Of a DNA stretch of 20,618 nt, positions 5,401 through 19,106 are shown piece after piece. Within the stretch, counting starts at the first letter, position 1. The number at the start of each line of letters is the position of its first letter. The notes under the pieces were generated by a model that saw only the letters and a program-made list of their open reading frames with translations, did no database searches and was not told where the DNA came from. The DNA comes from a virus, in the IMG/VR virus record IMGVR_UViG_3300022841_000079, positions 1-20,618 of that record, one strand, 5' to 3'. Made by a program: the position numbers and the translations under genes.

Positions 5401-7587
5401 TGCTTTAGAAATTGCTAATAGAATAGGGGTTAACTTTCCACTTACTACTGCGAGGGTTAATCCACCAAATATTAGGCCAGCAAGGAATCCGGGGATATCG
5501 CCACCAACCCAACCAGAGATACCTGCACCGGCGAGTACCTTGTTACCGAAGTCTGAGATTAAAGTATAAATCTTACTCAGGGCTTCGCTTAATCCCTGAT
5601 CACCAATAACTAGTTTTATAATAGCACCAGTTATAACTAAATTACGGAAACCTTTACTGAGAGCAAAAGCAAGTGCTAAAGAGAAAATATCGGCAAGCTG
5701 TAGCTCATTTTCTTTTGTAGCCCCAAGAAAAGCTTGAGACATCACCCTACCAATAGTAGTACCGATAGAGTCTAGTATTTTACCCGGTGTCTCAAATCCA
5801 AGCAAACCGCTAGAAGCCTTTTTATTGAACTCGTCAGTAGCGTCAGTAACACTTGATAATGAACTCTCAATTACTGCTTTTGCTGCTTTAAGTTTTTCTG
5901 TACCAACACCTTCGATATTTACCTTATCAATAAAACCAGTCATACTTAGCTTTAACTGAGCAGTGTCTAGTTTAAGAAAACCAGCTATGACTCCAACTAA
6001 GCCTAGTAACCGAGGAATCAAGCCCTCACCTATAGCAACAGTAACCGCATTAAATGATATACGTAAAGCGTTAAATTCATTATTAGCTGCTAGTTTGTTA
6101 TAGATATCAAGTAATCCGCTAGTACCGTTGTTTACCTCTTTAAACAACCTTTTAACTAACTCGCTTTTCTTAGCGTTTTCTGTTAACTCACCTAAGCTAT
6201 CATTAATACGTTTAACGTAGCTGTTTACTTCTTTAAGAACACCCGTATTTGCGGATACACCAATTTTAATTGAAATATCTTTGAAAAGCTTATTGAACTC
6301 AGTGCGTAGTCCTGTAAATATGTCAAATACATAAGCCTTAAACTTCTCAAGGTGAGGTTTCACCATATCGAGGAGCTTACCTGCCCACATAGTAATATCT
6401 TCAATTAAATCAGGCCAGTAAGAGTTCCCGACTACAGCATCCCAAATATTATAAAATATATCTTTAACTGCTTGACCAAACTTTGAAATGAGTGCTAGTA
6501 CTGTATCTAAACCGGGTAAGAAATCAGAAAGTTTCATAGCATAGGCTTTAACTGAACCACTAATATCTATACGAGAAAGAGCACCTCGTATATCAGATAT
6601 AATAGTGTCAGTATCGATAGTGATATCAGGGAGGAAAGAAATTGCCTTCCCTGCATACTCATTAAATAGCTTACCAATATCGAGAAGTATTAAACGTGCA
6701 TTATCGTAAAATAATGCAATATTAAATAAGCCCTTAGCTACTGAGAATTCTAGACCATCAGCGAAGTTAAGGAAGCTCTGCGTAATTGACTGTATACCTT
6801 TAACAAGAATCTTAGAGACCCCTGATTGACGTATCATCTTATCTTGTGTAATGGCAATAGCATCACCTAAGTTAGAGAACGCGCCGTTAAGCGTATTAAC
6901 TTGTCTTGAAGCTGCTCCACCAAAACCATCAGCTGCTTCCGCTACACTTTGAAAAGCTTTGTAGAATTTTTCAAAGGTCAAATTACCTTTTTCACTCTCT
7001 TTTCTCAATGCGCCCATTGATATACCCATAGCATCCGCAATTTTAGTTAGCGGGATACCTGCGTCAGTAATTTGGTTGAGTCGTTCAGCGGTTAGACGAC
7101 CTTCTGAAGCCATTCTTTCAAAGGCTACAGCAACTCTATTTAGTTCTACGTCACCACCACCTACGGCGGCAACGGCATCAGAGATATTCTGAATACCTCT
7201 TTCAATTTGTGCTTGACTAGCAAAGGCTCTACTACCTGTTGTAGCAAGTCTTGCGTATGCGTCAGTTAATGCCCTAACGCTATAGGGGGTAGCAGCAACA
7301 ATCTTTTGTACGGCACTAAAGGCTTGTACTGCCCTAGTTGTACTGCCTGTAGCTGTAACGAGTCTAGCATTTAATGTCTCAAAGCTAGCTGCTGTTCTGA
7401 TAGCGGCGGTTCCGATAGCAGCAATAGGTAAAGCGGCAAAAGCTACTTTAGTTGCAGTTGCTAATCCACTAATTGATTTGTTGATACTTTCCGCGCTGGT
7501 TTGTACCGACTTTAGTGATGATTCTAGTTTCTTTAAATCTACCTGTGCTTGCGAGGAATCCGAACGGACTTGAATTTGAACTGCCAT
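2407..7587 (-). CDS. Tape measure protein with embedded GH19-like cell-wall hydrolase
   Basis: 1726 aa. Residues ~1-245 form the tape measure N-terminal domain (AASFETLNARL; ASEGRLTAERLNQI; QVNTLNGAFSNLGDAI). Residues ~640-900 hold many hydrophobic helices, as expected for the part that enters the inner membrane. Residues ~1024-1262 resemble GH19 chitinase/muramidase: a KEAG segment with candidate catalytic E1077, then DGWDFRGRGWLQYTGRDVY at 1168-1186, matching the family's 'GDG-W-x-Y-R-G-R-G-x-I-Q-x-T-G-R-x-x-Y'. This domain is bracketed by two 54-aa repeats. A Gly-rich linker (about 1586-1594) and a typical C-terminal ADGGVVPG...IAHAGEVIL segment (about 1641-1664) follow. The protein sets tail length and probably opens peptidoglycan during DNA entry. 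Start: AAGGAG 8 bases upstream, just after a terminator-like hairpin. Confidence 0.93.
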   Translation of the reverse strand: MAVQIQVRSDSSQAQVDLKKLESSLKSVQTSAESINKSISGLATATKVAFAALPIAAIGTAAIRTAASFETLNARLVTATGSTTRAVQAFSAVQKIVAATPYSVRALTDAYARLATTGSRAFASQAQIERGIQNISDAVAAVGGGDVELNRVAVAFERMASEGRLTAERLNQITDAGIPLTKIADAMGISMGALRKESEKGNLTFEKFYKAFQSVAEAADGFGGAASRQVNTLNGAFSNLGDAIAITQDKMIRQSGVSKILVKGIQSITQSFLNFADGLEFSVAKGLFNIALFYDNARLILLDIGKLFNEYAGKAISFLPDITIDTDTIISDIRGALSRIDISGSVKAYAMKLSDFLPGLDTVLALISKFGQAVKDIFYNIWDAVVGNSYWPDLIEDITMWAGKLLDMVKPHLEKFKAYVFDIFTGLRTEFNKLFKDISIKIGVSANTGVLKEVNSYVKRINDSLGELTENAKKSELVKRLFKEVNNGTSGLLDIYNKLAANNEFNALRISFNAVTVAIGEGLIPRLLGLVGVIAGFLKLDTAQLKLSMTGFIDKVNIEGVGTEKLKAAKAVIESSLSSVTDATDEFNKKASSGLLGFETPGKILDSIGTTIGRVMSQAFLGATKENELQLADIFSLALAFALSKGFRNLVITGAIIKLVIGDQGLSEALSKIYTLISDFGNKVLAGAGISGWVGGDIPGFLAGLIFGGLTLAVVSGKLTPILLAISKAIALRLFLPSLINPETEAKEVGKAKTLGQKMGGAFRGSFSIAGGLAGTLIGGHLSEAALNAFGVKDPLTRAGVELGTIIGTAMAFSTIAAFAASKIIASGAWLLAAFSLPVIKAVLTRLALSTLLLGALFPSVSIVTTAVGSLLATIAAGLSAPVILAALGIAAGGFLLWNIFFGEEGSWGSKLQTFLATDVISPIVSALDTAFAFIEAKFNALKATVKDFFSFGSSQGGTGGGLIMPEGYATGGKISGPGTGTSDSILARLSNGEYVVNAKATASNRGLLERINGGLPAFAEGGVVGKPKNPNLTEVSFPYLDPDFTDNQLNLINSLGDFGFKTKLSLAAGLGTAQKEAGADLSQLTEDTGDGTGLFSSKYRTLLAKYKEHGIDKSKGVWAVSFFRDIDKKFKDKPVTERDDYLSKLLVKDFLGFQYMKVGAGNLTAQDGWDFRGRGWLQYTGRDVYDNIGYLSDPGLLGSSIDANITALPKYLNYKKLSADKVNALKTVSEISRTLNRAVNPGKPSDANKVASFATSNLKKFATGGAISGPGNGTSDSILARLSNGEYVVNAKATANNRNLLERINAGLPAFAQGGGVNMSNLAAATGGDLNRYDFSKLTSQEVIKLNKQITDLLQAQKSADDQLLRSGKVQEYTQKALDNLNEVTTNQLVQYMKPTPELLKAIRDDARSTKSKEIGTNAVGGLKSDFSANLLSLIKGESDFSTFGDSLLNSITSKITETTVSGFTEGLFSVLTAPLESFFSGSADNAMGAGSGFGGLISGVFGGAASSKPTGTVDNPTVTQDVNDVKSKLSSIKADDEKSSLVAVVTDKLSSAFDSLKNGFSTLFPELSKSLSGMFDGLMSILGGGSGGGGSGILGLISTGLSIYSGFSAGAATSSLASTSYSIAPASTGGMGFKLKAFADGGVVPGNYGQATPVIAHAGEVILNQAQQSRVAAAMQGGSSNGQQQVSINITGDISQQTRREILMMSPQIADMVRNNFMEKRILT
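3640..3801 (-). repeat. Tape measure repeat, copy B (C-terminal side of GH19-like domain)
   Basis: Encodes residues 1263-1316, beginning ATGGAISGPGNGTSDSILAR and ending PAFAQGG. The six differences from copy A are K/A, T/N, S/N, G/N, G/A and E/Q. The pair flanks the hydrolase domain exactly, suggesting the module duplicated around, or moved in with, the enzyme. Confidence 0.9.
4519..4680 (-). repeat. Tape measure repeat, copy A (N-terminal side of GH19-like domain)
   Basis: Encodes residues 970-1023, beginning ATGGKISGPGTGTSDSILAR and ending with a PAFAEGG. It matches copy B at 48 of 54 residues while many third codon positions differ, so protein sequence is conserved more than DNA. Such GPGTGTSDS...LSNGEYV...A modules recur in tape measure C-termini. 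Confidence 0.9.
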
Positions 7588-8878: not shown

Positions 8879-9035
8879 AATACTGTCCTATATATAAGAG
8901 AATTACACCTATAAGTATCATTATAATAATATATAAAGTATAACCTATAGGTGTAAAGAAAAGCAACCGGAGGGCGGAAAGAGTCTTCTTCTTTAACGTC
9001 CCCTGGTATAACTCTATGATTCTATTAAGATTTAG
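8868..9035 (-). CDS. Possible small membrane protein without a standard start codon
   Basis: In the gap between tail tube and the 78-aa gene, one frame is open from an in-frame TGA at 9060-9062 to a TAA at 8868-8870. The listed span begins directly after the tube gene's end. It reads as a basic amphipathic start (RIIELYQGTLKKKTL) followed by a hydrophobic stretch (LRLLFFTPIGYTLYIII, then MILIGVILLYIGQYYG). No ATG, GTG or TTG occurs before a TTG at 8964-8966; the only ATG (8919-8921) gives a 17-residue hydrophobic peptide. Its end overlaps the next gene by 11 bases, like the real 13-base overlap at 1519-1531. It could be a small holin-like or tail membrane peptide, or a chance frame in AT-rich DNA. 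Confidence 0.25.
   Translation of the reverse strand, partial: LNLNRIIELYQGTLKKKTLSALRLLFFTPIGYTLYIIIMILIGVILLYIGQYYGQ
8903..8956. repeat. 11-bp perfect inverted repeat in the tube/chaperone gap
   Basis: TTACACCTATA at 8903-8913 pairs with TATAGGTGTAA at 8946-8956 across a 32-base AT-rich loop. No T-run follows either arm on either strand, so it does not look like a terminator. Read on the minus strand, each arm carries a TATAGG or CTATAGG core, and a third TATAGG lies at 8887-8892. It could be a protein-binding site, an RNA stem or a promoter element. The rest of the gap (8957-9031) shows a short purine-rich tract and nothing else I can name. Confidence 0.5.
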
Positions 9036-9566: not shown

Positions 9567-9968
9567 TTATTCTCCGTATTTCTTAAAAGTGATTGAATAG
9601 TCGCCTCTGTAGATTGAACTATTAATCTTGTCTATGCCAAGCGGTATTAATGTGCTTGGTCCAAATTGCGTTCCATTAGTTAAAGTCTTACCCTGAAAAT
9701 AATCATTGATTATATCAGCTAACTCGTATAGGTCTTTATCTCCGGCATTATTATCTACAAAAATAGATAAAACCATTCTGCCAGAAAGCTGTTTCTCTAA
9801 ATTATGTGAATTTAGAGTAGCGACACCCGGAATTATTGTAAGGCGAATATACGGTAACTGAGTACCGATATCTCCTTGATAATTCTCAGGAAATACTCTT
9901 ATTCCTAGATTTTCCCAAAGATTACTTGCAAAAACACCATAAATATCTTGTCTAATTTTATTAAACAT
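9567..9968 (-). CDS. Tail terminator protein (gpU-like)
   Basis: 133 aa. A mixed alpha/beta protein with an N-terminal helix, FPENYQGDIGTQLPYIRLTI at 26-45, SGRMVLSIFVDNNAGDKDLYE, and a helix LADIINDYFQGK, ending with a beta hairpin (RGDYSITFKKYG). The order helix - 'lP-x-i-x-l' strand - strand - 'D-x-x-x-L-x-x-I-x-x-x-f' helix is that of tail terminator proteins, which stop tube growth and join the tail to the head. The gene directly precedes the tail tube gene, the usual place. It starts with a TAATG overlap on the stop of the upstream gene. Assignment rests on pattern and position. Confidence 0.65.
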   Translation of the reverse strand: MFNKIRQDIYGVFASNLWENLGIRVFPENYQGDIGTQLPYIRLTIIPGVATLNSHNLEKQLSGRMVLSIFVDNNAGDKDLYELADIINDYFQGKTLTNGTQFGPSTLIPLGIDKINSSIYRGDYSITFKKYGE

Positions 9969-10312
9969 TATGTTGTCCTTCCAATCTTAAAAGTTGTTAC
10001 GTAAGCATTCCCTGATAGAACAGAACAGTTATAGGTAATACCGTCAATCTCAACCGTGGTATAAGCATTAAAATTAACGCCACCTGTCTTTACCGTAAGA
10101 GATAAAAAGGTTGAAATTGTATTACCGATTTCTGATTTAGTAGTTTCAACAAAACCCTTGGTTGTATAGACGTTTGATTGTGCAACAATCTCGCCTACAG
10201 TGAAATCAAAGGATGTTACTGTTTTATTAGTGAATTTAGCCGTAACAGCTAGAGCATCTAGTTTACTAAAAGCTTTGTCTACAGCAAGTTGTAGTTTAGC
10301 TTTTGATACCAT
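9968..10312 (-). CDS. Head closure / connector protein (putative)
   Basis: 114 aa, not recognised by family. It has an N-terminal helix (AKLQLAVDKAFSKLDALAV) followed by beta strands and ends in an EIDGITYNCSVLSG...FKIGR segment, reminiscent of small beta-barrel head-tail joining proteins (SPP1 gp16 or lambda gpFII type). Position between the DnaT-like adaptor and the tail terminator suggests the head closure function. TAATG overlaps join it to both neighbouring genes, so the connector genes appear translationally coupled, suitable for making similar low amounts. Confidence 0.55.
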   Translation of the reverse strand: MVSKAKLQLAVDKAFSKLDALAVTAKFTNKTVTSFDFTVGEIVAQSNVYTTKGFVETTKSEIGNTISTFLSLTVKTGGVNFNAYTTVEIDGITYNCSVLSGNAYVTTFKIGRTT

Positions 10313-10830: not shown

Positions 10831-11922
10831 TTAAGCGTGTAGAATAGGGAGAATGCCTAAATTCAATGCATCCATCTTACGTGCCCATGAACCGGCAGTG
10901 CTGTAGGCACTATTGGTAGCAAAAGCAGCAGTAGAACCAGCCCAGTCGTAACCCATTGGATGCATTACGAAACCGTAACGATACCAAATAGAGGTAGAAC
11001 CACCACCAGTGTAAGAAGCCGCATCACGGTCAACTTCAACAGGGGCAGGCATAGCGATTGGGGAGAAAGCAATAGAACCGGGCTTAACGATGAAGGTAGT
11101 CTTAACAGACTGAGCATTCACGTTAGCAGAAGCAGCTAAGTTACCTTGGTCAACACGGCTAACAACTAAACGGAATTTTCCACCGAATACAGTTTGGAAG
11201 CTTAAGTTGCCGTCCATTACAGTAGTGGTATCAACTAAGTTAGCAGCACGTAGTTCAGCTAGCACTTCTGGGCTAGTAACCATGTACATAAAGTCAGGCT
11301 CATTGTCCTTGTAAGCCATGCCGATAGCTTGGAACAAGCGTTGGCCACGAGCAGCACCGATAGCGGTAGCATCAAATAACTTACGCTCAGTAGCAGCGTT
11401 AGAAGCGGCGTCACCGAATACGCTAGCAGCGTTGATGTCAACGAAAGCGCCAACACTTGAGGTATCAGCATCAGTGCTAAAACCTACGATACCAGCACCA
11501 CGGCTAACTTCGTATGAAGCAACACCCTTAAGGATTGATACAACAGCGTTAGATTCGTCAGTACCACGTACTTCAGCAAAGTCACGAGCAATCTTCAATA
11601 GACCGTCTTCTTGTGAGATTACTTGCTGTAGGTTGACTTGTTGTGAACCAAAAGTACGAACAGACTTGATGTAGTCGGCGATTTCGGTAGATACGTCAGT
11701 GTAAGTACCGTTAGCTGCGTTTGTTAGGCTTGCTACGTTGATGTTAGCAACCAAAGGTTTGTACCAACGGAGTTGGCCAGTGAAGCTCTCGCCAGTAGTA
11801 GAGATGCGAGCATCAGTACCGACTAGGCCAGTAGAGTTTAATTTCTTAGCGGTTGTGTACGCTTCGTCAGAGTAGGCACTGATAGCAAGTGCTACGTTCT
11901 TAAATAGAGTATGGTCGATCAT
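10831..11922 (-). CDS. Major capsid protein
   Basis: 363 aa, beginning MIDHTLFKNVALAISAYSDE. It lies immediately after a scaffold gene, has a strong AGGAG site 9 bases upstream, and uses more regular, GC-richer codons than most neighbours, as expected for the most abundant virion protein. Segments that fit an HK97-fold coat protein are a central spine-like helix region (SQEDGLLKIARDFAEVRGTDESNAVVSILKG, about 103-133), and a C-terminal A-domain-like region ending with GFVMHPMGYDW. No long N-terminal delta domain or fused protease is seen; scaffolding is provided by the separate upstream gene. I assign it mainly from position, length and overall character. Confidence 0.88.
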   Translation of the reverse strand: MIDHTLFKNVALAISAYSDEAYTTAKKLNSTGLVGTDARISTTGESFTGQLRWYKPLVANINVASLTNAANGTYTDVSTEIADYIKSVRTFGSQQVNLQQVISQEDGLLKIARDFAEVRGTDESNAVVSILKGVASYEVSRGAGIVGFSTDADTSSVGAFVDINAASVFGDAASNAATERKLFDATAIGAARGQRLFQAIGMAYKDNEPDFMYMVTSPEVLAELRAANLVDTTTVMDGNLSFQTVFGGKFRLVVSRVDQGNLAASANVNAQSVKTTFIVKPGSIAFSPIAMPAPVEVDRDAASYTGGGSTSIWYRYGFVMHPMGYDWAGSTAAFATNSAYSTAGSWARKMDALNLGILPILHA

Positions 11923-11946: not shown

Positions 11947-12594
11947 TTATAAATTAAAGTTTCCTAATTTGCCAGTTGCTGCCAACTGTAACATTTCAGT
12001 AGTTGTCATTTGTGACATCTTTTTATTGGGGTCTAACTTAGGTGTGCCTGACATTCCGCCAGCGCCAGTGCCTGAGTTAGTCTTGGTTTTAAACAAGAAG
12101 GTATTGTCTTCATCTTTTGAAAACGCATTAACAAACTCTTTAATGGATGCACCTGACTTATGAATCCAAGCTCCGGATTCCGGGTCTTGAACTAACTGAT
12201 CAACCACATCACGATACGCCATTTGTTGTGAGCGATCATTTCTGAAGTCTAATCCGGTGAGAGCATCACGAACAGCGGCATCACGAGATAATGAAGTATT
12301 ACGTTCCTCAGCTAAGCGTAAACGCTCTTTGAGTTCAGCCATTTTCATCTCAGCTACTTCTTTATGTTTACCTTCAGCTTCCATAGCAGACAACTTTTGT
12401 TGCTTCTTTTCTTCTTCAAGGTTTACACGTAGTTTCACAGCTTCATCACGTTCTGCGTATGCCTTATCTAGACTTGCCTTAACTTTAGAAAGACGTTCCT
12501 CAACCATTTTTTCAAGCAAAGCTTCAGTGTCTTTGTTTGATGGGTTTGAATCATCTTTTTTGTTAAGATCTAGATTATCGTTTAAGTCACTCAT
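11947..12594 (-). CDS. Capsid scaffold protein
   Basis: 215 aa from the ATG at 12592-12594. A GTG at 12615 would add seven residues (MPKENKT), but the AAGGAAA encoded there is the ribosome site for the later ATG, so I take the shorter form. An acidic, low-complexity start is followed by a long coiled coil (about residues 20-105, rich in E, K, A and L) and a short basic/hydrophobic C-terminus (TTEMLQLAATGKLGNFNL), the typical build of phage scaffolds that use the C-terminus to bind coat. It is between the MuF-polymerase and capsid genes. No protease motif is seen, so it is probably released or cut by a protease encoded elsewhere. Confidence 0.82.
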   Translation of the reverse strand: MSDLNDNLDLNKKDDSNPSNKDTEALLEKMVEERLSKVKASLDKAYAERDEAVKLRVNLEEEKKQQKLSAMEAEGKHKEVAEMKMAELKERLRLAEERNTSLSRDAAVRDALTGLDFRNDRSQQMAYRDVVDQLVQDPESGAWIHKSGASIKEFVNAFSKDEDNTFLFKTKTNSGTGAGGMSGTPKLDPNKKMSQMTTTEMLQLAATGKLGNFNL

Positions 12595-12663
12595 TGTTTT
12601 ATTTTCCTTCGGCACAGCCGTGTTTTAAGTTTTTTCCTGAATTACAAATTCTAGGGGGTTTTG

Positions 12664-14706
12664 TTATGGACCGATTCCATAAAAATCATAACCGGGTCTA
12701 ATCGGCGCTAAAATCTCTTCTCTAGTCAAAGCATTAGCTGGGTTTAGTAAGCCATCTTCAATGGCTCTTTTTACTAACAGATCATAACTCTTTCTTGACA
12801 TTCCTTCTCGGCGTAGTTGCTTAAGCGTATTTAATAGTGTATCACTATCAAGTGAATCTGCATAAATAACCCTTAAGGCATCTTTAGCTTTTTGAGCATT
12901 ACCGATGTTTGTAAAGAAAGCGTCATGAATTGTAGCTGTAGGTGTATTGCTTCTCGCACCCCATAAATGGAATTGCCGAACAATACTGGCGTCATTCATA
13001 TGATTACCATTAACACCCATACCGATTCCCGCTCTGTTTAGACTAGCTTTTCCTAATAATGTCGCATCTTCTGCTTTTGCTTCATAAATGTTCCTAACCA
13101 TTCTACCTGTTATAGGGTCTTTGAATTCAATACTTGTTTGAATCTTAGGACGGTAGCGTTGGTACAGCACTTTTTTATCGAATGTAACCCAAGGTATATC
13201 TACTTTTTGAGTTTCATCAACATAAATCTTTGCTGCTTCTTTCCAGAACTGAACGAACTTCTGAGTAATGGGTGCTCTTTCAGCAAGCTTCCTTGACATA
13301 ATCTCGGATACTTGTCTGAATTCTTGAGGACCGATTAGACCTACTCTCGTATTTGAGAGTTTATCCACGAAGGCTTCAACATCAGGGTGAACGTCCCTAG
13401 CTGCAGCAAGTAACTCTCGTCCCACGGGGACTTCGTTTTCTAGTACATCTATCAGTTCACGTTTTAACTGTTTTAGACCATATACAGTGTTATCTGCACC
13501 AATACGGTCAGCGTCACGTATTAACTTATCAATTTGATTGTTAACACCACGCAATTCTTCTCTTGTAATTACGGTATAACCTTTCTTTTGAAGGATACCC
13601 GCAAATTTAGCTTCAATGTTAGCGGCTTGTGTGGCTTTACCAGCACCGTAAAATGAAACCATATTTTGTGCTTTTGCTGCTTTCTGTAAATCAGTCCATT
13701 GAATATTAGCATCAGCTAGCTTATCAATCATCTGAAATTCAGGATCACCAACGGTGTCCATAGCAACAAGGTCATACAACCTGTTCTTTTGTGTAGTAGG
13801 TACTACGTTAGAGTTTAGTGAAATACTTCTATCTCGTGTGCTTAAACCAATAATCTGAGCACCGCTTGAAGAAGCGTCATTCTCAATCATTAGCTTTGTG
13901 CGATATGTACTTAACTTTTTAGCATCCGTAAAGTTACCGTTAACATGATCATAGACTCGTGCATACTCAAGAGCTAACCTTGACATCTTAGGTACTTCTT
14001 CAGCTTCTAATCCTACAATAAGAGGATGTTCAAGAAATTCCCTTATACGGCGATCTCTCTGAGTCTTAGACAACAGTAACCTACCAAGTGATAAAATATC
14101 AGCTTCATTCTTTTCAAAGATAGCCAACCTACCCGCATTAGATAGAGCTTCTGTAGCCGGACCGATCAACGAGCCTGTTTGAACAGCTAGCTCTTTCAAC
14201 TCCTGCAACCCAAAAGGCTGAGAGACAGCAGAGTTGAGGAACGGTCGAACAACTTCACCTCCGGTAGGGGTAAGGTATCCCTGATAGTAAACGCGTCCCC
14301 TGCCATCAATCTGGGCTACTACTGTGAAGGGCTTACCTCGTTGATTGTGGTACTTTACAGTTTGCATAAAACCGTAACCTTGATCACCTCGTTTTATGAT
14401 AAGTTTTCTGAACTCATTAATCTCATCATACTTAGCAGAGTTACCTCGTGGGTCTCTAAAGCGTACAAGATCATCCATAAACGAAGCAAAATCAAGATCA
14501 GTTTCGTACTCAACACTCATAGTGTGATTTAGCATCCTAGCAAAGTCTTTATCTACTAATACCTTATCATAGTTACCAGAGGCACGTCTTGTAATAATAC
14601 TGATACCTGTGTTTTTACCTCTTGCATCAAAGTAAGTCTTTTGACCTGCTTTAACAAATAGTTTATCACGATTATTAGTAATACCAAATCGTTGAGTGAG
14701 TAATAT
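12664..14706 (-). other. RNA polymerase catalytic domain of the MuF fusion
   Basis: Covers residues ~800-1479. Key codons: D933 at 14305-14307, D1076 at 13876-13878, K1144 at 13672-13674, Y1152 at 13648-13650 and D1394 at 12922-12924. Beyond the motifs, flanks align in order with T7: LALEYARV before motif A (T7 FCFEYAGV) and VVPTTQKNRLYDLVA after it (T7 ETVQDIYGIVA). The interval between motifs B and C (241 residues against 172 in T7) is longer, and it is where T7 has its promoter specificity loop. Confidence 0.9.
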
Positions 14707-17103
14707 TTGTCGATTCTTCGATTGAAGCTCCAGCATATCCTTATCAACAATGAGAACTTCTCTTGATATTGTGTCTTTCCAAGCACCTGTAGCTCTACCT
14801 GTTTCGAGGTCAGTAACACTTCGTCTTGATTTACCTCTCAGCTGTATCTTGATCTTTCCTTGCTCTTTTAAAAGCTGTAGGATATCAGAACCGTCTTTGT
14901 GGTAGTCAGCGAGTGTAGATTTATACGATGGGAAAGGTAATTTCCAATTGTCTCTTAGCGTCTTACCAATATTAATAGCGATAGAATCGTAATCAGTAGC
15001 CTTACCGTCTGCAACACCTGCTAGAATCTTTGAAAGGAGATCAATAGCTTGTTTGTCATTTAAAGTTTCATCAAGAAAATTATTTACGTATTTATTCTTT
15101 AAGCTTCTTGCTGATATTTCAAAGTCAATTATTTTTCTGATTTGTTCTTTGCTTGATGTTAATTGCTTATCGATATCTAAAAAATCTTTAACAGAGTTTA
15201 TTTTCTGTTTGATTTTCTTGAATACCTCAATATCATCTAACTCTCGGATATATAATGCTTTAGCACCGGGTATATTTGTCTTAATCCAGTTATGTATTTT
15301 ATCGTTAACGTCAATATTACTAGGCTTAAAAAAGTAGGTACGTAACGGCGACCTACCACGGTAGTAGACTGAGCGTGCTAGCTCTCTACCAAAGTCTCTT
15401 GACCAGTTGTCAATAAACCTTTGATTACCGAGTTGATTCTCAACTAAATCTTGGAAAGAGAAGTAGCGCCCTTGAATCTGTACCTTCGCCTCTTCACCAC
15501 CAAGGTATTTAGCAAACAGTTCTGCTCGTTCTCTTGACCGTCTATCGAGGATGCGAGATACGTTGGCTACACTAAACTGCTGTTCAGCTCTTGAGACCTT
15601 AATGAAGTCATCCCACTGTGTCTTGTCCTTGGCATAACGCTCAAATAGAATACGTAGATTCTCTACAATAACTGATTGATTATTTACACTAACCTGATCT
15701 TCAAGGCTCTCAGCAAAGTCTCTAATAAATCCTTTTTGGTCTTTTGTTAGCAACTTAGAGTTGTCAAGGAAGTCCAATCGTTCTTGATAGACAGACAGGT
15801 CAGGGTCATAAAGCAGTGTAGACTTAACTTCACCTGTAAAGGGATCAAACGACTGATTACGTTCATCAAATTCATTGTTAGCTCGCATACGGACGCTACG
15901 TTTACCGGCTAAAGTTGTACCTCTAAAGTCAGTTAAGGACATAGCTTGACGAATATCATCAGAGTCAGCAATATAGAGAGCTCTTAATTGTTTCTGATAA
16001 TCTGTACTCCGAAGAAGATCGTAGGGTCGCTTGATGCTTAGTAACTTATTACCATCATTGTCAATCTTACTAATAGCCGCTTGTCGGTTAGGGAATACTA
16101 ACGTCCTAGCATTATCTAGTTGACGTAATGCAGCAATGCTAATACCACGGCCTTTAGCGGTAAAGAACTCTGTTACTTTAAGAGTACCTGCTTGGAAGAG
16201 CGTTGCAGCTTCTTCTGAACCAAGGTGTTGGGTTTGAATACCCATGGTCTGTCTTAATAGCCAAGTAGAGTAATCCTCAACATTAGGTGACTTACCATTA
16301 AGCTGGTTAGCAGCTACTTCTTGTAGCTTACGCTTTTTAAGTCTCTCTGAGTCAGTCTTTAGTATATCTTCTTTAGTCTTTAAAACGGGGACCAACGCTG
16401 ATCGGCAATTCCAGTGAAGAGGTGGTCTATATCGAACGTCCTCGAGAGGGAATACTTGACCATCGAGACTGGAACAGGTAGTACTTGTTCGAGCGTCAAG
16501 TACAGCAGTAAAACGATATCCATAAATAATGTCCTTGTTTCTTTCCATCACCTTATCGATAGCCACAGCTTCAGTACGGGTAATAGCGGTTCTCACAAGG
16601 GATTTAACTTGTGATTCGGTTAATTTGGTTGTCTCTATAACACTTTCAATGATCTGCTTTTGTGATAATTTATTTGCTAAACCATCTCTAACTTTACCAT
16701 TAATTCTATTTAATTCACCAGAACCAATAGAATTAAAATGATCTTTTAAGCTTTTTGATACTTTGATGTTTGGACCAATGATATCAATTGCTGTTTCAGC
16801 AGCAGAAGGTTTTATAACCTTAAAGAAGCTACCTGTAGATTTCTGTAAGTTGTTAGCATGAAAAGAGGAAGCTGCACCAGCAAAATCATTTACGCTATTA
16901 CTTGCAATACTGTTTATTTCTTTCATTGCGCGAGTAATCTCAGGCTTCATATCTGCTCGGATATTGCGTACTAGAAGATCTCTAAGCCTTTTCTGGTGTC
17001 TGCGAATACCGCGAGAGACATTAGTTTGTGTTTCTAACTCGTATAGCCTTGTATCAGCTAAATGCTGTACAATTCTATCGTAGAGATCATCGTTAATAGC
17101 CAT
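12664..17103 (-). CDS. MuF minor head protein fused to T7-type single-subunit RNA polymerase
   Basis: 1479 aa. Residues ~1-330 are a Mu gpF/SPP1 gp7-type head protein: RTAITRTEAVA (171-181), D203 to C210, LDGQ (213-216), PPLHWNCR (227-234) and a trailing YSTWLLRQ...LG segment (278-330). Residues ~800-1479 have the single-subunit RNA polymerase motifs: DGRGRVY (933-939; T7 DWRGRVY), motif A DASSSGAQ with D1076 (T7 D537), motif B K1144/M1148/Y1152/G1153 at the exact spacing of T7 K631/M635/Y639/G640, H1368/D1371 (T7 H784/D787), and motif C HDAF with D1394 (T7 D812). T7 R627 is replaced by Q1140. Both catalytic aspartates are present, so activity is likely. The gene lies between portal/lipoprotein and scaffold. 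Inferred role: a polymerase carried in the head and delivered with DNA to transcribe early genes. Residues ~330-800 are unassigned. Confidence 0.92.
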   Translation of the reverse strand: MAINDDLYDRIVQHLADTRLYELETQTNVSRGIRRHQKRLRDLLVRNIRADMKPEITRAMKEINSIASNSVNDFAGAASSFHANNLQKSTGSFFKVIKPSAAETAIDIIGPNIKVSKSLKDHFNSIGSGELNRINGKVRDGLANKLSQKQIIESVIETTKLTESQVKSLVRTAITRTEAVAIDKVMERNKDIIYGYRFTAVLDARTSTTCSSLDGQVFPLEDVRYRPPLHWNCRSALVPVLKTKEDILKTDSERLKKRKLQEVAANQLNGKSPNVEDYSTWLLRQTMGIQTQHLGSEEAATLFQAGTLKVTEFFTAKGRGISIAALRQLDNARTLVFPNRQAAISKIDNDGNKLLSIKRPYDLLRSTDYQKQLRALYIADSDDIRQAMSLTDFRGTTLAGKRSVRMRANNEFDERNQSFDPFTGEVKSTLLYDPDLSVYQERLDFLDNSKLLTKDQKGFIRDFAESLEDQVSVNNQSVIVENLRILFERYAKDKTQWDDFIKVSRAEQQFSVANVSRILDRRSRERAELFAKYLGGEEAKVQIQGRYFSFQDLVENQLGNQRFIDNWSRDFGRELARSVYYRGRSPLRTYFFKPSNIDVNDKIHNWIKTNIPGAKALYIRELDDIEVFKKIKQKINSVKDFLDIDKQLTSSKEQIRKIIDFEISARSLKNKYVNNFLDETLNDKQAIDLLSKILAGVADGKATDYDSIAINIGKTLRDNWKLPFPSYKSTLADYHKDGSDILQLLKEQGKIKIQLRGKSRRSVTDLETGRATGAWKDTISREVLIVDKDMLELQSKNRQILLTQRFGITNNRDKLFVKAGQKTYFDARGKNTGISIITRRASGNYDKVLVDKDFARMLNHTMSVEYETDLDFASFMDDLVRFRDPRGNSAKYDEINEFRKLIIKRGDQGYGFMQTVKYHNQRGKPFTVVAQIDGRGRVYYQGYLTPTGGEVVRPFLNSAVSQPFGLQELKELAVQTGSLIGPATEALSNAGRLAIFEKNEADILSLGRLLLSKTQRDRRIREFLEHPLIVGLEAEEVPKMSRLALEYARVYDHVNGNFTDAKKLSTYRTKLMIENDASSSGAQIIGLSTRDRSISLNSNVVPTTQKNRLYDLVAMDTVGDPEFQMIDKLADANIQWTDLQKAAKAQNMVSFYGAGKATQAANIEAKFAGILQKKGYTVITREELRGVNNQIDKLIRDADRIGADNTVYGLKQLKRELIDVLENEVPVGRELLAAARDVHPDVEAFVDKLSNTRVGLIGPQEFRQVSEIMSRKLAERAPITQKFVQFWKEAAKIYVDETQKVDIPWVTFDKKVLYQRYRPKIQTSIEFKDPITGRMVRNIYEAKAEDATLLGKASLNRAGIGMGVNGNHMNDASIVRQFHLWGARSNTPTATIHDAFFTNIGNAQKAKDALRVIYADSLDSDTLLNTLKQLRREGMSRKSYDLLVKRAIEDGLLNPANALTREEILAPIRPGYDFYGIGP

Positions 17104-17105
17104 TG

Positions 17106-17504
17106 TTACTCTTTCTTAAATAAACTAATAATAAACTTAATACCGTTACCTATTCCAGAAAAGAATTCTGAAATAGATTTCCTAGTTCCTGTCCATATCT
17201 CCATTGGAGAAGGCAAAATCCATCCAAGAATAATAAGAATAATAGCCCAAGGGGGTAAGTTTTGGATGGATACCTGAGCAGCCTCAATAGCGTTTTCTGA
17301 CTGGCTTAATTTACCAATGTCATTTGCTTCAACTTTGTTTTCTTTAACTTCACCTACGATAACGCCTGTTTGCTTATTTTCTTTACCTATTTGAGTATTA
17401 GCAGCTACATTAGTACCACCACCCATTCCCGGTATAAATGCAGATAATGCAGAACACGCTGTCAGGGATAATGTGAGTAATATAATAGCTAATACTTTTT
17501 TCAT
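17106..17504 (-). CDS. Lipoprotein with C-terminal membrane segment (spanin-like)
   Basis: 132 aa. Residues 1-17 form a lipoprotein signal: MKK, a hydrophobic core and lipobox LTAC with C17 as the lipidated residue. Then comes a soluble, Asn/Glu/Lys-rich stretch of about 65 residues and a hydrophobic PPWAIILIILGWILPSP (84-100), followed by a basic amphipathic tail. Lipobox first and membrane helix near the C-terminus is the plan of unimolecular spanins (T1 gp11 type), which link outer and inner membranes at lysis. Its location inside the head operon, two bases before the MuF-polymerase gene, is odd for a lysis gene. It could alternatively help entry of the polymerase, or act in exclusion of other phages. 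Strong AGGAG ribosome site; its stop is close to the next start. Confidence 0.7.
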   Translation of the reverse strand: MKKVLAIILLTLSLTACSALSAFIPGMGGGTNVAANTQIGKENKQTGVIVGEVKENKVEANDIGKLSQSENAIEAAQVSIQNLPPWAIILIILGWILPSPMEIWTGTRKSISEFFSGIGNGIKFIISLFKKE

Positions 17505-19106
17505 TTAGACTCCTTTTGTTAGAGTTGTTTTTAGGTTCTCAAGAATACTAGCATCAATGTTAGACGCATTAGTACCTACAAGCGGGTCTGTTTGAATCTC
17601 AGAAACACCTTCGTCATCATTGTAGTCAATTGGCAGAATATCATTCTGTTTAGCAATAGCAATAAAAGTAGAACGTGGGATAATACCTTGCTGATACCAA
17701 TCTGTAATTAGTCGCATCCAATCAGCACCCATAGGTGTTGGATTAAAGTCAGCACTCAAAGTAAAATCTACATCCGATTCATTTAAGCCTAAGCCATATT
17801 TCCAATTTAACATAACAGTAATAACTGACTGCATTGTCTTAGAAATCTTGTTGTTTAACAGACCCAATTGTGCTGTTTGTGCAGCATTACGGATCTCGAG
17901 AGCTACACCGCTCTGTCCACTACCTTCCGGTGATAACATACGGATGCCCATCTTAGCCATTTCTTCAACAGTAGCTGATATAGCGTTTTCCATATCAGAT
18001 AATGAGCCAGTAGGTGTTTCAAGCGCCTTGATAGAGTCTTCTTTGCGTAGGTGAATCCACGAACCTAGACCTGCACCAACGATATCATCAAACTGCTCAT
18101 CAGTCATATCAGACATAACAACAGGGGTGTATGTTGCTGCACCATATAGTAAATGGTTACGGCGGGATATCTTATTGTACAATGATACTTCACGGTCTAC
18201 AAGGGGTTGTAGGGCAGGTTCAATAGGGTCTACTTGACCGTTTAAAGGGAAGGCCGGAATATATGGGATTCTTTCACCTTGCATTAGGGGTTTTTGCGTA
18301 CTAATTAAGGACCAATCTTGAGTAGTTAATGACTGAATATACTGCGGACTTAAGTTACCGTTGATCACATCAACAGTGTCATTCGTATCTCTACGCTGAT
18401 AAGTATCAGTAACAAAATAACCCTCTTCATCGAGATAGTAGTGGCTCACTGTGTCTACATAGTCAGGATGAAACGGATTACTATCATAGTTAGGCATATA
18501 GTACCGCATAACCAGACTAGTTAATGTCTCAGCATTACTAAAGCGACCCTTACCCTTACGCCAATTAATAACGTTTTCAGCCTTGACAACCATAGCATAG
18601 GGGCTAATCATGTCACGCTGTTCAGGGGAAAGTTCATCGTAATTATCTACTTCAGGATGATCAACAATAATCCACGCACGAGATGTCTGTAGTTCTTCCC
18701 AGATAGCTTCATCAAGAAAAGATAGCATAGGTATACCGTCAGCACTAAAGTTATTCTTTAACCAAGACTCAGCACCTTCAGGTACACTATCAGGTAGTGT
18801 TAGTTGAGGCGGTTTACGCAATAGTCCACCCACGAGCACCTTAGCATATTGGGATACTAGACCCGGTAACTCTGCCTCTGCACGATAGAAGTTGAATTGC
18901 TCCTGTGTCATCTTAGGGCTAAAAGGCAATAACAAATTCTTGTAGGTGTAAACATCGAGAATGTCATCGTAAGCTTTTGCTTGAGCTTGTCCATTTAGGA
19001 CAGCCCGTGATCGCTTCCAGAGGGTGCGTAGAGACTCATAAGAGGCTGAAGGATCACCAACAGATTTTGTTGCCGCCTTAGTTGTAGTAGTTGTTAAGTT
19101 CGCCAT
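17505..19106 (-). CDS. Portal protein (DUF4055-like)
   Basis: 533 aa. Central family features: YESLRTLWKRSRAVLNGQ (23-40), a YKNLLLPFSPKMTQEQFNFYRAEAEL run at about 55-80, and VSQYAKVLVGGLLRKPP at 84-100, matching the DUF4055 portal pattern 'Y-x-x-R-x-x-x-x-N-x-x-x-x-x-x-x-x-G-x-x-F/L-R-K-P'. Further features are the wing/stem region LVDREVSLYNKISRRNHLL, a GSWIHLRKEDSIKALETPTGS segment, and a stem-helix-like SGQSGVALEIRNAAQTAQLGLLNNKISKTMQSV near 390-420. Portal dodecamers form the DNA channel and anchor MuF-type proteins, here encoded two genes later. Ribosome site AAGAAGA before the ATG is moderate. Stop is immediately followed by the ATG of the lipoprotein gene. Confidence 0.88.
   Translation of the reverse strand: MANLTTTTTKAATKSVGDPSASYESLRTLWKRSRAVLNGQAQAKAYDDILDVYTYKNLLLPFSPKMTQEQFNFYRAEAELPGLVSQYAKVLVGGLLRKPPQLTLPDSVPEGAESWLKNNFSADGIPMLSFLDEAIWEELQTSRAWIIVDHPEVDNYDELSPEQRDMISPYAMVVKAENVINWRKGKGRFSNAETLTSLVMRYYMPNYDSNPFHPDYVDTVSHYYLDEEGYFVTDTYQRRDTNDTVDVINGNLSPQYIQSLTTQDWSLISTQKPLMQGERIPYIPAFPLNGQVDPIEPALQPLVDREVSLYNKISRRNHLLYGAATYTPVVMSDMTDEQFDDIVGAGLGSWIHLRKEDSIKALETPTGSLSDMENAISATVEEMAKMGIRMLSPEGSGQSGVALEIRNAAQTAQLGLLNNKISKTMQSVITVMLNWKYGLGLNESDVDFTLSADFNPTPMGADWMRLITDWYQQGIIPRSTFIAIAKQNDILPIDYNDDEGVSEIQTDPLVGTNASNIDASILENLKTTLTKGV

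Follow-up and report, generated by a model that had tools for sequence, protein, structure and literature searches.

A 20,618-nucleotide stretch of viral DNA from IMG/VR (the window) encodes, at 12664–17103 on the minus strand, a MuF head protein joined to a divergent, complete single-subunit (T7-type) RNA polymerase. We propose, with a probability of about 0.78, that this fusion is a virion RNA polymerase that is injected and fires a conserved early element, P_E, to make a second phage polymerase, RNAP2. Virion RNA polymerases have been described in N4-like podoviruses, giant phages of the phiKZ type, crAss-like phages and a single group of Thermus siphoviruses. If the proposal is true, the fusion represents a further design, in which an enzyme of the T7 class is borne by a portal-associated MuF protein, and early transcription in these phages is free of the host enzyme.

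Architecture of the fusion gene

The fusion gene is a single frame of 1479 codons without an internal stop. At the N terminus, Phage_Mu_F (PF04233) matches residues 133–237 (E = 3e-10; 41.2 bits against a cut-off of 29.6) and PHROG 241 (head morphogenesis) matches residues 47–331 (E = 1.5e-50). In the C-terminal part, PHROG 414 (RNA polymerase) matches residues 913–1166 (E = 1.7e-23) and RNA_pol (PF00940) matches residues 1060–1433 (E = 7e-5), the latter at 22.2 bits against a cut-off of 22, which is marginal when taken alone.

The protein can be divided into three parts, all encoded on the minus strand. The MuF (gp7-like, portal-proximal) domain comprises residues 1–335 (16099–17103), based on PF04233, PHROG 241 and a match to gp59 of Pelagibacter phage Kolga. 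It is followed by a middle region, residues 336–510 (15574–16098, approximate boundary), that is modelled as mostly helical and for which no family match was found. The single-subunit RNA polymerase module spans approximately residues 511–1479 (12667–15573) based on profiles and the structural model, with its N-terminal boundary inferred from T7 spacing. Within this module, DGRGRVY (residues 933–939; 14287–14307) aligns with T7 DWRGRVY 421–427, and motif A, ENDASSSGAQ (13855–13884), aligns with T7 FDGSCSGIQ such that D1076 corresponds to D537. These are followed by motif B, K1144-x3-M1148-x3-Y1152-G1153 (13639–13674; T7 K631/M635/Y639/G640), by H1368/D1371 (12991–13002; T7 H784/D787) and by motif C, H1393-D1394 (12922–12927; T7 H811/D812). 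A sequence-only reading of the window had described the uninterrupted frame, the N-terminal MuF signature including D203 and C210, and the polymerase motifs in this order, and all of the residues that it named are found at the positions it gave. The PF00940 search that it proposed does return a match, but one too close to the cut-off to carry the assignment by itself.

The gene is placed between the portal gene and the scaffold and major head genes, all on the minus strand. The upstream portal protein (17505–19106; PHROG 145, DUF4055) is separated from it by a small lipoprotein with similarity to Rz-like spanins (17106–17504). Downstream are a head scaffolding-like protein (11947–12615; PHROG 206) and the major head protein (10831–11922; PHROG 247). 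The MuF gene adjoins the portal gene in the head module of the window, of roseophage DSS3_VP1 and, judged by ORF order, of a genome from a sister clade (L131). An Rfam scan of the window returned no match. The window is 100% identical to bases 51110–30493 of a 59,528-bp contig (G001). An assembly error or chance fusion is ruled out by this 59.5-kb contig and by many uninterrupted homologues; the joining of the two parts is not due to chance because all closed homologues carry both MuF and polymerase.

Fold and conservation of the polymerase half

A PDB search with an HMM built from the polymerase half recovers T7 RNA polymerase (E = 1.7e-8), with motif A (D1076/D537), the H784 block and motif C (D1394/D812) aligned. 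In a profile–profile comparison with T7, SP6 and phiKMV enzymes (hhalign) the match is 98.5% with E = 1.6e-15; the motif B block is unaligned in this comparison and was assigned by its K-x3-M-x3-YG spacing and its invariance. We modelled residues 281–1479 with AlphaFold2 using 52 aligned homologues (pLDDT 78, pTM 0.73). The model predicts a palm/fingers fold like that of T7 RNA polymerase for the C-terminal part. T7 RNA polymerase is the best Foldseek match (E = 3.4e-18), and all 50 PDB matches listed are single-subunit RNA polymerases, either T7 or mitochondrial. The model also matches phage polymerases, with N4-type virion polymerases further down the list at about 1e-11. Thus, in the comparison with T7 and N4 enzymes for which the sequence-only reading had called, the T7/mitochondrial fold comes first and the N4-type enzymes are weaker.

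The residues named in that reading are invariant in nine aligned full-length homologues, except G934 of DGRGRVY. Across 62 diverse homologues, D933, R935, R937, Y939, D1076, K1144, M1148, Y1152, G1153, H1368, D1371, H1393 and D1394 are invariant, and these include the aspartates, lysine and tyrosine on whose conservation the earlier claim had been staked. The T7-type catalytic set (D537/D812, K631, Y639, H811 and H784) is matched by D1076/D1394, K1144, Y1152, H1393 and H1368. The dN/dS of the fusion gene is approximately 0.05–0.1 where dS is measurable and, judged from these ratios, the gene is under strong purifying selection. Conservation relative to DSS3_VP1 is stronger in the polymerase core (58.7%) than in the MuF part (41.5%).

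Relatives and spread

Among 50,697 phage records, the whole protein was found only in roseophages DSS3_VP1 and DSS3_PM1 (49% identity over the full length) and in EBPR siphovirus 1 (28%). The record labels are "head morphogenesis", "minor head protein-like protein" and "head protein" plus an intron-split "hypothetical protein", and in all three records the fusion is unrecognised as a polymerase. The two roseophages belong to the Naomviridae (Noahvirus), and the host of DSS3_VP1 is Ruegeria pomeroyi DSS-3. Fusions of this type are also common in IMG/VR, where they form two deep clades, both abundant: a window-like clade (clade 1) and a sister clade, 31–33% identical in the polymerase. Two IMG/VR searches returned 437 and 147 relatives among candidate stretches, counts that refer to contigs, many of them near duplicates, and not to independent events. 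All closed ORFs from these searches comprise MuF, middle region and polymerase (1450–1550 aa), and frames that lack MuF begin at contig ends or after an intron. The fusion-bearing phages appear to be a widespread and overlooked group of aquatic bacterial viruses. One pair of 74,179-bp contigs, a metagenome-bin contig assigned to Gammaproteobacteria and an IMG/VR phage contig (L131/L132), has 100% protein identity. Because of the same size and the identical protein, the bin contig is probably a binned phage genome and not a prophage.

Pelagibacter phage Kolga provides an informative relative without the fusion. Its portal protein is 48% identical to that of the window, and its MuF protein gp59 (L469:45152–47053) matches window residues 1–335 at 32% but carries a metallopeptidase-like C terminus (HEFAHH) where the polymerase would be. 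Kolga encodes a T7-like polymerase, RNAP2, but no MuF–polymerase fusion.

Introns and insertions

Group I introns occur in five MuF–polymerase genes (L040 13179–13405, L209 9467–9733, L210 11187–11463, L211 7257–7542 and L181 12210–12416). Four of these, in EBPR siphovirus 1, L209, L210 and L211, are at motif B codons, and that of L181 is elsewhere in the gene. In EBPR siphovirus 1, the intron falls short of the Rfam gathering score (E = 1.7e-8) and is accompanied by an HNH endonuclease gene, and the exons join as ...KAAKAQNMV/TFYGAGERTG, the sequence of intron-free relatives. Six other genes (L200, L201, L202, L203, L205 and L207) carry an insertion, in frame and roughly 230 aa long, shortly past motif B; inspection by eye of L203 and relatives revealed no intein features in this insertion. 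RNAP2 matches are split or lie within longer frames in G015, G017, G029, G033, G037 and G045, which suggests that RNAP2 genes may also contain introns or insertions.

A second polymerase with its own predicted promoters

DSS3_VP1 and the long contigs from both clades also encode RNAP2, a T7-like polymerase of the orthodox kind with about 690–790 aa. It is present in all eight window-clade records of at least 55 kb, DSS3_VP1 included, and in 15 of 15 sister-clade contigs of at least 56 kb; no record of 55 kb or more lacks it in the two sets searched first. RNAP2 matches the T7 group with E = 1e-75 but the MuF polymerase with only 1e-8 to 5e-10 (hhalign). Based on this weak mutual match (blastp E = 8e-4; hhalign 1e-8), we ruled out that the MuF polymerase is a recent duplicate of RNAP2.

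A search for repeated intergenic words revealed candidate promoters for RNAP2. Three window-clade contigs (G001, G002 and G003) each contain five copies of ACCAGGGGACGYTAAAGA or close variants on the coding strand at matching positions. In each, the first copy is directly downstream of RNAP2 and none is ahead of it. The copies are intergenic, save one in G002 and one in G003 that overlap small doubtful ORFs. This word resembles the SP6 promoter, ATTTAGGTGACACTATAGAAG. The window holds one of the five copies of G001, the predicted RNAP2 promoter ACCAGGGGACGTTAAAGAAG ahead of the late genes (8988–9007, minus strand). DSS3_VP1 has eight copies of the candidate promoter AATAGGKTRCGTTAAAGA, and sister-clade genomes have five to six copies of CCCCGTTAAATTAACC. 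These words are most simply read as RNAP2 promoters of about 20 bp that change with the enzyme.

A conserved early element, P_E

The early region contains a conserved AT-rich promoter-like element, P_E, that differs from the RNAP2 promoters. Its window-clade form reads AAAAAGTGAGAAAAATGACGTATCTATAATGA and occurs in one or two copies; the two copies of DSS3_VP1 differ from it by four changes. In several genomes of this clade it directly follows a hairpin terminator. The sister-clade element is GCGSN8GTATCTTATATGA, which is kept even in a genome with 63% G+C. We scanned IMG/VR by the P_E DNA pattern alone, and 82 of the stretches recovered encode RNAP2 as well. All 125 P_E copies in them (125 of 125) are upstream of RNAP2 and on its strand, at distances of 829 to 7,324 bases (median 2.35 kb). 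The fusion is encoded in 23 of the 26 contigs of at least 45 kb that were fetched by P_E alone, and the other three are records of 46–54 kb in which RNAP2 is present. Kolga, with its MuF protein, related portal and RNAP2, has no P_E beyond the level found in shuffled sequences. No RNAP2-type promoter is found between P_E and RNAP2 in the mapped genomes with one exception, at position 41842 of G011, where it lies between P_E copies.

A hairpin-DNA promoter as in N4 seems less likely for P_E, whose core showed no hairpin. In the sister clade, a variable hairpin follows P_E in 55% of cases, compared with 19% in shuffles; no such excess occurs in clade 1. Several other elements were observed in the early region. 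Between early genes of G002 (L220:4337–4391) lies a sequence resembling a hammerhead ribozyme, whose core reads CTGATGA...GAAAC...GTC; it matches Rfam RF00008 with E = 1.6e-4, short of the gathering score. Elements that resemble pseudoknots, namely CTCCCTGCCAGCGGGAGTATAATCTAGCTGGC and variants in which changes compensate each other, occur at about 1820–1910 in G001 (L212), at L220:6160–6215 and at equivalent sites, and are followed by TTTTTTATCAAA or similar just 5' of RNAP2. Other hairpin terminators share the ending TATCAAA.

In the strongest rival to our reading, RNAP2 is made by the host RNA polymerase from P_E, much as the early genes of T7 are read by the host enzyme; a packaged and active fusion would then pull the genome in or transcribe something else. 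In its favour, the clade 1 element contains a perfect sigma70 -10 hexamer, TATAAT, which the host enzyme could read, and Kolga manages with RNAP2 and without the fusion. However, P_E has no recognisable -35 at 16–18 bp and its conserved upstream block is too close, the sister clade has TTATAT and keeps the element the same even at 63% G+C, and the conserved footprint is nearly continuous over 25–36 nt. Moreover, the early region shows no excess of sigma-70-like matches over shuffled sequences. We therefore regard transcription of P_E by the host as unlikely.

Proposed role of the fusion in early transcription

We suggest that one or a few copies of the protein would dock through the MuF domain to the portal within the procapsid, as SPP1 gp7 does. 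Procapsids contain one or two copies of a MuF protein bound by the portal, and delivery of the C-terminal cargo at infection is considered likely (PMC6316719, PMC5576092). The T7-type polymerase would enter the cell with the DNA or just ahead of it, initiate at P_E and read the early cluster of 1–7 kb, making early proteins and RNAP2. RNAP2 would then transcribe the replication and virion genes, the fusion included, from its own promoters of about 20 bp. The analysis establishes the fusion, its predicted fold and conserved active site, purifying selection, co-occurrence with RNAP2, and the two promoter-like classes with their placement; packaging, injection, activity and the assignment of each element to a polymerase are what we infer. 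That a MuF-tethered polymerase starts early transcription had been suggested by the sequence-only reading, and this role gains support from the presence of RNAP2, the separate early element, its absence from Kolga, the invariant residues and the fold.

Several observations count against this reading. The link between P_E and the fusion could reflect descent alone because they co-occur within one phage lineage, and the absence control is a single phage, Kolga. One RNAP2-type promoter lies amid P_E copies in G011, PF00940 is matched marginally and the assignment of motif B relies on spacing. A protein of 1479 aa would have to pass through the long tail of a siphovirus, and the MuF cargoes known to date are toxins or other enzymes.

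Alternatively, the polymerase could be active late, in the producing cell, with MuF anchoring it at the packaging vertex, for example to couple transcription or DNA handling to packaging. The location of the gene in the late structural block, 3' of RNAP2-type promoters, is consistent with this. Yet RNAP2 already covers the late genes, in N4 and P23-45 the virion polymerases are particle components that do their work when the next infection begins (PMC4496689, PMC10770324), and P_E and RNAP2 would be left without a phage reader, so a late role is improbable. We give almost no credence to the idea that the C-terminal half is an enzymatically inactive relic serving only as an internal head protein, for despite its low similarity to known polymerases and the marginal PF00940 score, its catalytic residues are invariant across two clades that are 31–33% identical, it is under strong purifying selection and introns are inserted at motif B.

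Unusual DNA chemistry was also considered. G001 (L212) encodes a dATP/dGTP diphosphohydrolase-like protein (6279–6968), a dCMP deaminase (9765–10154) and a ClpP-like protease (17345–18001), and its nucleotide-enzyme genes hint at altered nucleotide pools. Replacement of thymine by uracil was rejected as a general reason for a private polymerase: dCMP deaminase is present in the window clade but absent from six sister-clade genomes. Outside DSS3_VP1 itself, the dTMP phosphatase family of the DSS3_VP1 type turned up in just one genome, which is of the sister clade.

Comparison with known systems

The sequence-only reading knew of no fusion of this kind, and we likewise found no report of a MuF–RNA polymerase fusion in the literature searched, which lacked the description of DSS3_VP1. 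The general idea of a virion RNA polymerase that starts early transcription is not new, as N4 packages such an enzyme and that of P23-45 is fused to the tape measure protein (PMC10770324). We lean towards regarding the fusion as an independently evolved class of virion RNA polymerase: MuF-tethered and T7-type, using a double-stranded, non-hairpin promoter (P_E), handing over to a T7-like RNAP2 and independent of the host enzyme. If so, MuF cargo gains a constructive role beside that of toxins. The two predicted promoter classes probably supply new promoter/polymerase pairs, and DSS3_VP1 on R. pomeroyi DSS-3 offers a culturable system for studying the passage of a polymerase through a long tail and its takeover as the genome enters.

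MuF/gp7 proteins with C-terminal effectors, such as SPP1 gp7, MuF polymorphic toxins (PMC5576092) and polyvalent proteins (PMC5512222), share with the fusion a MuF domain, a gene directly downstream of that for the portal and a variable C-terminal cargo. A polymerase cargo was not found in the searched parts of these surveys of MuF toxins and polyvalent proteins. The fusion does not resemble a MuF polymorphic toxin: its C terminus is an RNA polymerase in place of a toxin domain, and a scaffold-like gene comes next where a toxin would have its immunity gene.

Compared with the T7/SP6-type RNA polymerases (Autographiviridae), the fusion polymerase has the same fold and the same motifs A, B and C in order and spacing, but it is far more divergent than RNAP2 of the same phages (E = 1.6e-15 versus 1e-75 to the T7 group) and is fused to a head protein. 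As in N4, a divergent single-subunit polymerase, packaged in N4 and predicted to be so here, would serve early genes that include the next phage polymerase, and the N4 circuit resembles the one proposed (PMC4496689). In contrast to the fusion of 1479 aa with its N-terminal MuF domain, the N4 virion polymerase (Schitoviridae gp50) is a podovirus protein of about 3500 aa that carries an encapsidation region of its own at the C terminus and uses hairpin promoters. Membership of the N4 group is ruled out at the sequence level, as hhalign gives a probability of 0.3% against an N4 profile of two sequences only; the match to PHROG 2166 is weak.

In P23-45, a virion polymerase fused to the tape measure transcribes pre-early genes, including that of a non-virion polymerase, from AT-rich promoters, and relatives without the fusion are also without the early motif (PMC10770324). 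The fusion-bearing phages share with it a long tail, an RNA polymerase joined to a structural protein of the virion, a second non-virion polymerase and early promoters, here predicted, that are AT-rich and distinct from those of the second polymerase; here too, a relative without the fusion lacks the motif. However, the P23-45 enzyme is of the two-barrel, cellular type (DxDxD) and N-terminal on the tape measure, whereas here the polymerase has a predicted T7-type fold and is C-terminal on a MuF portal-associated protein, with a separate tape measure gene. Judged from profiles and the model, the fusion polymerase is a divergent single-subunit RNA polymerase that belongs to neither the N4 nor the P23-45 group, and by analogy it is predicted to work like the virion polymerases of both.
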